Shown one piece after another: positions 10,670 through 40,261 of a stretch of 46,225 nt of DNA (position 1 is the stretch's first letter; each line of letters opens with the position of its first letter). The DNA is from Bacteroidia bacterium (GTDB taxonomy: Bacteria; Bacteroidota; Bacteroidia; SpSt-205). Position numbers and translations under genes: made by a program. Below the pieces are notes generated by a model. It saw only the letters and a list, made by a program, of their open reading frames with translations. It had not been told where the DNA came from and searched no databases. The DNA is taken from positions 1 to 46,225 of the forward strand of contig JAOAHZ010000005.1 of NCBI GenBank assembly GCA_026414975.1. The letters are read 5' to 3'.

Positions 10670-10743
10670 TCGGGGAGGCGGGATTTGAACCCACGACCCC
10701 TAGTCCCCTAAACTAGTGCTCTACCGGGCTGAGCTACTCCCCG
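10670..10743 (-). tRNA. tRNA-Pro (anticodon AGG)
   Basis: A 74-nt cloverleaf without encoded CCA. The acceptor is CGGGGAG/CTCCCCG with discriminator A; C1-G72 and A73 are proline identity features. The D arm is GCTC...GAGC, the anticodon stem CTAGT/ACTAG with the 7-nt loop TTAGGGG, the variable loop GGGTC, and the T arm GTGGG-TTCAAAT-CCCGC. Positions 34-36 of the loop read AGG, with G37 as expected for proline. A34 is unusual for a bacterial proline tRNA; if converted to inosine it could read several CCN codons. A -7 box lies 9 nt upstream. Confidence 0.93.
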
Positions 10744-26914: not shown

Positions 26915-28588
26915 TTATTGGAATAGCCGTTCCAGTGCTTCTTCTGTGAGGAGGAAGCGAATGCGGCGTCCTGTGGGGCTATACTCGGGCTGCGCGCAGC
27001 GCTGAAGGTCCTGCCATAAGGCCTCTACGGCTTCTGGCGATAAGGGATAAGGGGGACGAGCCACGCTATGGCGGGCCATATGCTGAGCTATCCGTTCTCG
27101 CCAATCAGGAGGGAGCGCTTCAGCTAATCGGAGTATTTCCTGTAGGACTGGTAAAGCGGCTGCGGGTGAAAGCCCTGCTGGTACGCTATGGAGTACGGCT
27201 TCACGACCTTCTCGTATTTCTATCCGTAATCCCGCTCGCTCTAAAGCCGGTATAAGCTCAGTCAGATGGGCAGCTTGAATGGGCGTAACGGAAGCGTGGA
27301 CGGGAAAAAGCAGACCTTGAGGGGATACGGGAATGCCCTGGACATACCTTTCATACAAGATGCGTTGATGAGCTCCAAACAAATCGAGCAGCCACACCTC
27401 TCCTGCTCGGCGCAGTACTAAGAATCGCCCAAAGAGTAATAGATAATCAGGCAGCTCTCGTCCAGTAGGATTAGGAAGAGGCAAGATAGTTGACGAGTTC
27501 GGCTGAGAGGGGGGCGGGGGAGCTGAGGGAGGCGGCGGCAGCTTAGCGGTGCTTTTTTCTATCCAGTCGGTGGGTAGCGCCAGACGGGCTACAGCCAAAA
27601 TACGCCGAACTATACTCTGAAGCATCGCCCGAACCTCCATCTCATGGAGCAGGCACACCTCGGTCTTAGAGGGCGTTATGTTGATGTCTATCTGAGCGGG
27701 GTCTATTTCCAAAAAAAGCCAGTACAAAGGGCGCTGCTCTTCCCGTAAAAGCGGCTTATATACCTGGTAAATGGACTGCTGAAGACCCGCATGGCGGATG
27801 TAGCGTCGATTGATGAATAAAAACCCCTCTCGGTTTTGGGGGGGCGTAGCCTCGGGTAATACGAGAAAACCTTGGGCAGAGAAGAAGGGGGTAGTGTCTT
27901 CTACGCTGACGAGGTCTTCGGTTCGGAGCTCCGGATGCAAAGCTAAGATGCGGTTTAGGGGAGAGGTGGGAGGTAAGTCATAAAGAAGGGTGTCGTTGTG
28001 GTAGAAGCGAAATAGCCGTTCAGGGTGGGGATAAGCTAAACGAAAAAACTCTTGGAGATTGTGGCGGTGCTCGGTGGCATCGGAGCGCAGGGATTTTCGT
28101 CGGACTGGGAGTTTATGAAAAAGCTTTTGTACGATGAGAGTGGTGCCGGGGGCACAGCGAGTTGGCTCTACCAGCAGCTTTTTGCCGAAGGCTATTTGAA
28201 CATGAGTTCCTATCTTGTCTTGAGGGCGGCGTGTGAAAAGCTCTACTTCAGCTACGGCTGCAATACTAGCTAAAGCCTCTCCTCGAAATCCTTTCGTTAG
28301 GAGGCGACTCAGGTCTTTGGCGGATGATATTTTAGAGGTGGCATGTCGCTCAAAGCACAGCTCAGCGTCTATGGGAGACATGCCTATTCCATCGTCTGTT
28401 ACTTGGATGCGCTTCTTTCCTCCCTGCTCAGTCCAAATAGAGATGGAAAAAGCCTCGGCATCTATGGCATTTTCTCCCAGTTCCTTTATGACGGAGGCAG
28501 GACGCAGAACAACCTCACCGGCTGCTATCTGATTGATGACCGATTCTGGCAGAATATGAATGCGCTGTTCAAGGGCGCCTGTAATCAT
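26915..28588 (-). CDS. mutL: DNA mismatch repair protein MutL, C-terminal nuclease site degraded
   Basis: 557 aa. The N-terminal GHKL ATPase is intact: IAAGEVVLRPASVIKELGENA, DDGIGM, RHATSKI and GFRGEALASI. A Pro-rich linker (about residues 345-380) leads to the dimerisation domain. Its endonuclease motif, normally DQHAxxExxxxE, reads DLFGAHQRILYE (about residue 399). The usual ACHxAIR segment reads MARHSVAR, and the CPHGRP metal segment reads SPTGRR. All three sites thus lack key residues, so strand nicking is predicted lost while ATP-driven signalling may remain. The start overlaps the end of the upstream gene by 20 nt. Confidence 0.93.
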   Translation of the reverse strand: MITGALEQRIHILPESVINQIAAGEVVLRPASVIKELGENAIDAEAFSISIWTEQGGKKRIQVTDDGIGMSPIDAELCFERHATSKISSAKDLSRLLTKGFRGEALASIAAVAEVELFTRRPQDKIGTHVQIAFGKKLLVEPTRCAPGTTLIVQKLFHKLPVRRKSLRSDATEHRHNLQEFFRLAYPHPERLFRFYHNDTLLYDLPPTSPLNRILALHPELRTEDLVSVEDTTPFFSAQGFLVLPEATPPQNREGFLFINRRYIRHAGLQQSIYQVYKPLLREEQRPLYWLFLEIDPAQIDINITPSKTEVCLLHEMEVRAMLQSIVRRILAVARLALPTDWIEKSTAKLPPPPSAPPPPSQPNSSTILPLPNPTGRELPDYLLLFGRFLVLRRAGEVWLLDLFGAHQRILYERYVQGIPVSPQGLLFPVHASVTPIQAAHLTELIPALERAGLRIEIREGREAVLHSVPAGLSPAAALPVLQEILRLAEALPPDWRERIAQHMARHSVARPPYPLSPEAVEALWQDLQRCAQPEYSPTGRRIRFLLTEEALERLFQ

Positions 28589-29807
28589 ACCTAAATGCGC
28601 TCAAGTCAGGGAAGTAAGGACGCTTGCGGGTGGTCTCATATCGGTAAATAACCCATCCCAGCTCTCTTAAAAACCGGAGGCCAAGGCTCCATGGATACCC
28701 TTGAGCCGGCGGAAAGCCTAAATAACCCTCTCCCACATAAATCACCGCCGACAGAAAAAACTCAACGCCTAAGTCAAAATCCACGATATACGCTACGTCC
28801 GACAGATACCCATAAGCCATACCGACTTTATTGAAAATGCGTATGCGGGCTGGGAGGGGAACGCTATCACTGGCCCCCATTAAGAAGTACTTTCGGACAC
28901 CGTCGTGATACTCTTTGAGATTGTAGTCGGGGTCGCGTGCTTCAGAAGGATACATAGACAAATACCGACGAATAAGATGATAGGCCTCGCTGCTAAGCTG
29001 AAATCGTTCAGAAGGGCGCATTGTCTGAGGGAAAATCAAGCTCATTAGAATGGCATGGGCATCCTTGAGGCTTAGAGCGTTAGAGTAAGGGGTGAAAAGG
29101 TAGGGGTGCTTGCTATAAGGATGAGGCGGAGGCTCTTGAATACAGGTGGGAGGGAGAGTATAAGCAGGCGCTTTGTCTCGCAAAAAGACGATCCGTTCTA
29201 CGCAAAAGTTCTCCTGGGTATTACAGCTACGGCTCAGCCGGTGTCCAAAATAAGCGGAAGTATAGCCTCGTTGATGCAAAGTATGCGTGGCGTGGACCGG
29301 TCCGACTAAGGCATACAAATAGTCAAAGGTGGGATTATCACTGAATACGAGCTGGCGGCGAATGCAATCCACCACGCTATACAGCTGCTTAGGTAGCTGG
29401 GTGAAGCACCCCGAGTGAAAGGGACTTTCTAATACAAAAGGCGTATAAGGGGTGATGCCCTGTCCCTTGAGCCGTTCTAATCGTTCTAAGGCAAGGGCGG
29501 ATAGGGGCAGTTTGACTAAGCTGGCGGGATAGAAGTATTCAGTCGTATCTAACCGAAAAGCGTAATGTTTTAGGATGGGCCGATTTTGAGCGTCGCGATT
29601 GACTTGAGTATAGAGGATTTGGATGCGATAAGTCTTGGCGGCATGAAGGTAGGGCTGAAGATGAGGAGCCTTTTCGGCTAAAAGGCGAGGTAGAAAGTTC
29701 GTATCGGGGGCAGAAAGGCTATTGACCTGAGGGCGATAGGGCTGAGGCGAAATAAGCCCTACGGAGCTAAAAATAAATCCAAGCCACACGAAGCGCAGAC
29801 CTCTCAT
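28569..29807 (-). CDS. exported class A beta-lactamase-fold serine hydrolase
   Basis: 412 aa with an N-terminal signal segment (MRGLRFVWLGFIFSSVGL). The three active-site elements of the class A fold are in order: PASLVK (SxxK, about residue 92), VFSDNPTFDY (SDN, about residue 154) and FNKVGMAYG (KVG in place of KTG, about residue 326). An insertion of about 100 residues separates the last two. Such proteins act on penicillin-like or peptidoglycan-like substrates or as esterases; true beta-lactamase activity is not implied. It overlaps the DUF2279 gene upstream and mutL downstream. Confidence 0.82.
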   Translation of the reverse strand: MRGLRFVWLGFIFSSVGLISPQPYRPQVNSLSAPDTNFLPRLLAEKAPHLQPYLHAAKTYRIQILYTQVNRDAQNRPILKHYAFRLDTTEYFYPASLVKLPLSALALERLERLKGQGITPYTPFVLESPFHSGCFTQLPKQLYSVVDCIRRQLVFSDNPTFDYLYALVGPVHATHTLHQRGYTSAYFGHRLSRSCNTQENFCVERIVFLRDKAPAYTLPPTCIQEPPPHPYSKHPYLFTPYSNALSLKDAHAILMSLIFPQTMRPSERFQLSSEAYHLIRRYLSMYPSEARDPDYNLKEYHDGVRKYFLMGASDSVPLPARIRIFNKVGMAYGYLSDVAYIVDFDLGVEFFLSAVIYVGEGYLGFPPAQGYPWSLGLRFLRELGWVIYRYETTRKRPYFPDLSAFRYDYRRP

Positions 29808-30594
29808 AAACAAGGGCGGGGAAGGGTGTTTTTATAGCTACAAAGATACTCATTGCCCAGCGTGATCGCCGTATAAGCACTTCCCAGTGGGGGTCTAAGC
29901 TGAGTAGCCAGCGGCGGTATTCTCGCGCTTCAATCAGGCTTTTGGGCTCTCGTCCGTACCCCCCTAACAACCCTCTGGCTCCATGCCCAATCGCTATCCC
30001 TACGGGTAGCGAGGCGTGCATGATCACTAGCCAGTAAGTTTGTCCATTATAGTCCTTGAGGATTTGGGCTAAACCCCGTCCCAATAGGTCAGGACGTTGA
30101 GCAGCGTAGGGGGAGGGAAAAAATGAAAACCTCACGTCTATTCGCCAGGGACGTAGATAATCCGCTATCCAGAAAAGTCCCGTGCCCATCGTATTAGCTA
30201 CTACATCCCAGAAGGAAGCACCCCATTTTGGAAAAAACCCATCCGCTATTTCTATGCTATTCTGAAAGCTCCAAGCTAATAGAGCTGCTAATATGCGAGC
30301 CTTATCCGAGGGATAGCCGCAAGATTCAGCCCATGTACGGTATATCCAGCTCAAATGATAAGTCGTCCATACATGCCCTAACTTGTCCATCTGTTTCCAC
30401 TCACCTCCATCGTCAAAGAAGCGCCAACCTCGGGCCGTGGACCAGTCGTACCAAAGGAACATAGGAACTCCATAAACCCCTGCGTAGCTAAGGGCTGTCC
30501 CTATCCAAAAGCGTTTGGGCAGTCTCGTCGTGTCAGCGTATGTAAGCGCTGACAGGAGTAGCAGCTTAGTAATCAAACTCAGTCTCGGCTGCAA
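29767..30594 (-). CDS. DUF2279 family envelope protein
   Basis: 275 aa. It has a signal-like N-terminus (MQPRLSLITKLLLLSALTYA). The family signature is clear in FFDDGGEWKQMDKLGHVWTT, followed by IEIADGFFPKWGASFWDVVANTMG. This matches DUF2279, a predicted outer-membrane or periplasmic protein of Bacteroidota with no known function. It overlaps cutA by 29 nt and the serine hydrolase by 41 nt, so the four genes cutA to mutL form one tight reverse operon. Confidence 0.85.
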   Translation of the reverse strand: MQPRLSLITKLLLLSALTYADTTRLPKRFWIGTALSYAGVYGVPMFLWYDWSTARGWRFFDDGGEWKQMDKLGHVWTTYHLSWIYRTWAESCGYPSDKARILAALLAWSFQNSIEIADGFFPKWGASFWDVVANTMGTGLFWIADYLRPWRIDVRFSFFPSPYAAQRPDLLGRGLAQILKDYNGQTYWLVIMHASLPVGIAIGHGARGLLGGYGREPKSLIEAREYRRWLLSLDPHWEVLIRRSRWAMSIFVAIKTPFPALVYERSALRVAWIYF

Positions 30595-30898
30595 GCCATC
30601 TCAGATACTCTGGCAGCCCCTGTGCAATAGGTAGCAAAAGGATAGCTGGCACCTTATAGGAGTGGTGGGTTCGGATGAGATTCTCTATGGCTTGGTAATA
30701 AGTGTAAGGGGCCTTAAGGAGCAGGAGGGTTTCGGAGTCCTCTTGCAGCTTGCCTTCCCACCAATAGAGCGAATGGATAGAAGGGACGATATTCGCACAA
30801 GCAGCCAGTCGCCGCTCTAAGGTCAGTTGAGCTAAGCGCTTAGCCTCTTCTAAGTGGGCGCATACAACATACACCAGTCCAAACTCTGGCTGCTCCAT
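30566..30898 (-). CDS. cutA: divalent cation tolerance protein CutA
   Basis: 110 aa, normal length. CutA forms a very stable trimer of ferredoxin-like folds. Conserved segments are LVYVVCAHLEEAKRLAQLTL, RLAACANIVPSIHSLYWWEG (read in part), KAPYTYYQAIENLIRTHH and SYKVPAILLLPI. It was named for copper tolerance, but its role is still unclear. TACCTTCG, a one-base variant of the -7 box, lies 4 nt before the ATG, so cutA leads the operon. Confidence 0.95.
   Translation of the reverse strand: MEQPEFGLVYVVCAHLEEAKRLAQLTLERRLAACANIVPSIHSLYWWEGKLQEDSETLLLLKAPYTYYQAIENLIRTHHSYKVPAILLLPIAQGLPEYLRWLAAETEFDY

Positions 30899-40189: not shown

Positions 40190-40261
<72 letters not shown>

Follow-up and report, generated by a model that had tools for sequence, protein, structure and literature searches.

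How does a bacterium direct mismatch repair to the newly made strand when neither of the familiar nicking enzymes appears to be available to it? The textbook rule gives bacteria two ways to nick the new strand, MutH or the endonuclease of MutL itself, and most bacteria without MutH carry the DNA-cutting site in MutL. The mutL gene studied here lies in a window of 46,225 nucleotides (the whole stretch of DNA that was analysed) from a Bacteroidia bacterium whose genome comprises 2.2 Mb in 58 contigs and is 96.7% complete. Close relatives, such as SKYG57, SKW103 and KatS3mg025, are metagenome-assembled genomes that carry the title 'Bacteroidia bacterium', and the isolate names suggest that the window organism and these relatives come from hot springs. 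The original prediction for this locus was that all endonuclease motifs of the MutL are degraded while its ATPase domain is intact, and that strand nicking must come from another protein, or repair must work differently in this lineage.

The window MutL and its metal site

The gene and the relevant parts of its product are listed below, with lost zinc ligands given as the B. subtilis residue followed by the window residue.

26915..28588 (-): mutL, an open reading frame with an ATG start encoding 557 aa, with Pfam domains DNA_mis_repair, HATPase_c_3 and MutL_C
27584..28567 (-): N-terminal GHKL ATPase and transducer domain, residues about 8-335, from Pfam and a solved-structure match
26918..27463 (-): putative C-terminal dimerisation domain (CTD), residues 376-557, from AlphaFold and Foldseek matches to 3ncv, 3gab and 3kdk
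27350..27385 (-): motif II, DLFGAHQRILYE, residues 402-413, versus canonical DQHAxxExxxxE; H464>F404 and E468>Q408 lost
27302..27319 (-): putative beta-clamp binding motif QGLLFP (motif III, QxLLxP), assigned by sequence
27056..27079 (-): motif IV, MARHSVAR, residues 504-511, versus canonical ACRxAIK; C573>R506 lost
26963..26980 (-): motif V, SPTGRR, residues 537-542, versus canonical CPHGRP; C604>S537 and H606>T539 lost

The protein scores 376 bits against TIGR00585 mutl (cut-off 180) and 59 bits against MutL_C PF08676 (cut-off 25). Its N-terminal domain (NTD) matches the solved MutL NTD 5akb (E=4e-52), and the catalytic E36, N40, D65, GFRGEA and K308 are all present, so the ATPase domain is intact as predicted, at every GHKL residue checked. 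Across Bacteroidia MutLs, E36, N40, D65, G67, G69, GFRGEA and K308 are effectively invariant. The AlphaFold model of the CTD is confident (pLDDT 96.1, pTM 0.88), and its best Foldseek matches are the N. gonorrhoeae and B. subtilis MutL CTDs, indicating that the domain is whole and that the loss is confined to the metal site. Dimerisation of this domain is putative, the assignment coming from PF08676, AlphaFold and Foldseek.

In B. subtilis MutL, two zinc ions are bound by H464 and E468 (motif II), C573 (motif IV), and C604 and H606 (motif V) (PMC2965676). When a Bacteroidota CTD profile was aligned to the B. subtilis CTD (3GAB/3KDK) over the entire domain, all five of these ligands were found to be substituted in the window MutL. 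The three motif strings given in the original prediction each lie exactly in place in the 557-aa ORF; its description of all motifs as degraded holds for the five ligands and is a slight overstatement for motif II, which retains D402, R409 and E413. The equivalents of R409 and E413 form a structural salt bridge (PMC2965676). The protein thus lacks the features of a PMS2/B. subtilis-type endonuclease, namely DQHA(X)2E(X)4E, the ACR cysteine, and the CPHGRP cysteine and histidine. The prediction would have been undermined by metal residues conserved at shifted positions, and we observed no relocated His/Cys/Asp/Glu pattern in the CTD. C531, the only cysteine newly conserved in Bacteroidia, was considered as a relocated ligand; it is also present in 13 of 43 intact MutLs and so is not a compensating one. 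Mutagenesis elsewhere shows what such changes can do: replacing the CPHGRP histidine abolishes nicking by Aquifex MutL, motif II Asp/Glu changes abolish it in other homologues, and replacing the CPHGRP cysteine did not abolish it in Thermus MutL (PMC2744016). By analogy with these other species, the window MutL very probably cannot nick.

The putative clamp motif has been kept. Stretches of the QxLLxP type are described as binding the clamp in other bacteria (PMC8744996, PMC2965676), and the clamp-binding MutLs (Fukui's subfamily I, cited in PMC8744996) are described there by QxxL/IxP in the CTD, a pattern that can be read in the window protein. QGLLFP is present in all nine genus members; its assignment is by sequence, and E. 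coli MutL has this stretch too. Among 123 Bacteroidia MutLs the Q is found in 120, L427 in 121 and the F in 122, and the key positions are kept in 97-100% of degenerate as well as intact MutLs.

The mutL start overlaps the preceding gene by 20 bases. The same-strand genes 5′ of mutL (28569-30898, minus strand) encode CutA1, a DUF2279 protein and a Beta-lactamase2-domain protein, with overlapping ends. Elsewhere in the window there are two tRNA genes on the minus strand (10670-10743 and 40190-40261), besides which an Rfam search of the window returned no family at gathering score.

Spread and history of metal-site loss

We collected the MutLs of relatives within Bacteroidia (123) and in other classes of the phylum (57) and scored the five ligands in each. 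Of the Bacteroidia proteins, 21 keep none, 90 a single ligand (most often the motif II Glu), 9 two and 3 all five, with none at three or four. This is the alignment that the original prediction called for, and it places the window protein among the 120 of 123 that retain at most two ligands and have lost the site. The MutLs of four named Bacteroidales (Bacteroides finegoldii, Phocaeicola massiliensis, Parabacteroides distasonis and a Prevotella) are degenerate as well. Judged from these alignments, metal-site loss is a near class-wide trait that extends well beyond the window's lineage. The three intact Bacteroidia MutLs (L003, L007 and L012), with DQHA, ACR and CPHGRP complete, come from one early-branching genus (g42, family f41), which seems to have kept the ancestral state and offers an obvious reference point for the other Bacteroidia. 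In the other classes of the phylum, 40 MutLs keep all five ligands and 17 keep 0-2. The MutLs of Bacillus velezensis and Thermomicrobium roseum retain the ACR cysteine and the CPHG cysteine and histidine.

The ligand count in Bacteroidota is therefore bimodal, 0-2 or 5 and never 3-4, the pattern that loss of a shared function would leave. Using CTD positions that are nearly invariant in the 40 intact outgroup MutLs as reference columns, we found that the four most-affected ligand columns have 2-17% retention in Bacteroidia, below the other 37 near-invariant columns (Mann-Whitney p = 0.0008). Together with the bimodal counts, this argues that the loss is neither chance nor an alignment slip. 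One MutL within a clade of degenerate proteins (L072, genome G220) reads DQNAAHER, IARRSAIK and CPQGRP, with the motif V Cys kept and the His lost, and is a possible intermediate.

A tree was built on the NTD alone so that the scored columns were excluded; it is unrooted, with one long row and quick-search supports, and in it a branch with support 99 separates all Bacteroidia from the rest, and another with support 89 sets apart all degenerate Bacteroidia, the intact genus falling outside. The simplest reading of these sequences is one loss early in Bacteroidia, after the divergence of the intact genus. Six changes are required over the whole tree, at least five of them forced by well-supported branches; with the intact site taken as ancestral, this implies several further losses, at least four in other classes of the phylum and apparently independent. 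The apparent losses elsewhere fall in four sets: L189, L193 and L200; L066, L068, L179, L185 and L190; L192, L194, L197, L198 and L201-L203; and L195.

Repair genes and the proposed source of strand ends

MutS1 was found in 11/11 genus genomes, and the window genome's own MutS has the F-Y-E mismatch-reading motif and a Walker A. A UvrD/PcrA-like helicase, scoring below the pcrA equivalog cut-off, is encoded by every one of the order's 13 genomes; RNase HII was found in 10 of the 11 genus genomes. A second, complete mutL would have countered the original prediction; the window genome has a single PF08676 match, and there is one per genome across 188 matching relatives. Searches for mutH, a Dam-like methylase and partner nucleases had also been proposed there. 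MutH was found in 0/11 genus genomes, the single-contig genome G005 included, and the Dam-like methylase family PF02086 is absent from the window's genome and scattered among its relatives. PF02976 matches occur in 7 genomes among 198 relatives and in 3 among 148 phylum genomes; five full-length matches from elsewhere in the phylum, checked as possible MutHs, proved to be Sau3AI restriction enzymes of 461-489 aa. NucS has no match in the genus and matches in 6 of 119 relatives. MutS2 has been reported from Bacteroidetes (PMC3200294); nothing above cut-off was found for the Smr domain in genus genomes G000-G010, which suggests that the window genus has no typical MutS2. No nuclease adjoins mutL in the genus either; an unrelated nickase would lie beyond such family searches. 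In many other Bacteroidia (L096-L175), mutL is followed downstream by two rhomboid-like membrane proteins and then by what its sequence suggests is a membrane-anchored protein resembling the endonuclease/exonuclease/phosphatase (EEP) family, an arrangement absent from the window genus.

We consider it likely that Bacteroidia class-wide, and several other branches of the phylum independently, have a MutS-MutL repair that lacks both MutH and MutL endonuclease activity and relies on an undescribed nickase or on purely end-directed strand discrimination. Between these we lean, with modest confidence, towards a matchmaker MutL without endonuclease activity, tethered to the clamp, that would direct excision from ends which the nascent strand already has. 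MutS would detect the mismatch and load MutL, which, driven by ATP and tethered to the beta-clamp via QxLLFP, would switch on the helicase (UvrD/PcrA) and exonucleases. Excision would begin at existing discontinuities of the new strand, such as Okazaki ends, the growing 3′ end and RNase HII cuts at ribonucleotides, and those same ends, rather than a MutL or MutH nick, would give strand identity. Elsewhere, Okazaki ends and RNase HII nicks have been proposed as sites from which repair could start (PMC8744996). For the window organism, we infer three things: a MutL without nicking activity, functional mismatch repair and reliance on pre-existing ends. In Elizabethkingia anophelis (Flavobacteriales, Bacteroidia), a mutS nonsense mutant is a hypermutator with many transitions (PMC5458099), indicating that MutS-dependent repair operates in Bacteroidia; its MutL is presumably degenerate, as are 120 of the 123 sampled from the class. 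MutL here very probably does not nick, so nicking must have another source or be dispensable. The part of the original prediction that placed nicking outside this MutL or made repair different thus stands, whereas its insistence on another protein was too strong, since pre-existing strand ends are an equally compatible source, and its restriction to this lineage fails given the losses in the rest of the class and in at least four other branches. B. subtilis and yeast need MutL nicking in vivo, which means that pre-existing ends do not suffice everywhere.

The main rival to end-directed excision is that MutL recruits a nicking enzyme of its own, as yet undescribed, which would do the work of MutH in Bacteroidia; we regard this as possible and less likely. 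E. coli offers the precedent, its MutL lacking the site while MutH nicks; the E. anophelis mutant shows that at least one species of Bacteroidia has working MutS-dependent repair (PMC5458099); and a backup nuclease already in place would make the several independent losses in the phylum easier. However, no MutH, NucS or above-cut-off Smr domain was found in the genus, and no nuclease adjoins mutL there, the EEP-like neighbour being limited to other Bacteroidia. A nicking MutL with a reduced or rebuilt metal site, made of Asp402, Glu413, Glu408 where present and the conserved Cys531, appears improbable. Across Bacteroidia the motif II Asp is kept in 80% and the first Glu (the E408 position) in 76%, so that residual metal binding could persist, while C531 is conserved in 114 of 123, and the Thermus enzyme nicks despite its changed CPHGRP cysteine (PMC2744016). 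Yet the E408 position is Gln in the window species and three others of the genus and Ile, Val or Leu in the four named Bacteroidales, C531 is shared with intact MutLs as described above, the retained R409 and E413 are explained by the structural salt bridge (PMC2965676), and the CPHGRP histidine change inactivates Aquifex MutL (PMC2744016).

It is less probable still that MutL is simply decaying and that mismatch repair does not operate in the window organism. Loss of the catalytic site is how decay would be expected to begin, and the CTD does evolve faster than the NTD in the genus (pN 0.27-0.34 and 0.14-0.19, respectively). However, all nine complete genus copies of mutL are full-length ORFs at 63-70% identity with synonymous sites near saturation (pS 0.7-0.9), and near-saturated synonymous sites beside low pN indicate that MutL is under purifying selection. 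The ATPase residues are likewise invariant, and MutS is retained in every genus genome.

Comparison with known mismatch repair systems

A review places the endonuclease motif in all MutLs except those of some MutH-using gammaproteobacteria (PMC3848065), and we found no report of an endonuclease-less MutL in Bacteroidia in the open-access literature. Bacteroidia, dominant gut bacteria included, break the two-nickase rule throughout the present sample, and make it genetically testable whether a mismatch-provoked nick is needed or replication-born strand ends are enough. In public annotation, naming these proteins 'DNA mismatch repair endonuclease MutL' is probably a mistake for most Bacteroidia. 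That name is carried by the proteins of Bacteroides finegoldii (L247) and Parabacteroides distasonis (L250) despite their missing metal site; the source records of these two are chromosome-like pieces filed as plasmids in PLSDB.

Like the NucS/EndoMS repair of Actinobacteria and Archaea, the system proposed here would process strands in a non-textbook way; however, NucS replaces MutS-MutL in its hosts, whereas the window genus keeps MutS-MutL without NucS. The E. coli MutL, representing MutH-using Gammaproteobacteria, is similar in having an ATPase, a dimerising CTD without metal motifs, the QxLLxP stretch and a matchmaker role. It differs in working with MutH, which is absent from the window genus, and in being without the substructure seen in the Bacteroidia CTD, which has a B. 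subtilis-type helix, the motif II R/E and a vestigial motif V (PxG). The MutL endonucleases of B. subtilis, N. gonorrhoeae and Aquifex share with the window protein the CTD fold (3gab/3kdk/3ncv), the ATPase and the lack of MutH, and the clamp motif is common to the window, B. subtilis and N. gonorrhoeae MutLs; unlike B. subtilis MutL, the window protein has all five zinc ligands replaced. Eukaryotic MutL-beta (human MLH1-PMS1, yeast Mlh1-Mlh2) likewise has no endonuclease motif (human PMS1: PMC2965676), but it is an accessory beside the endonuclease-bearing MutL-alpha, whereas the window protein is the only MutL of its genome.
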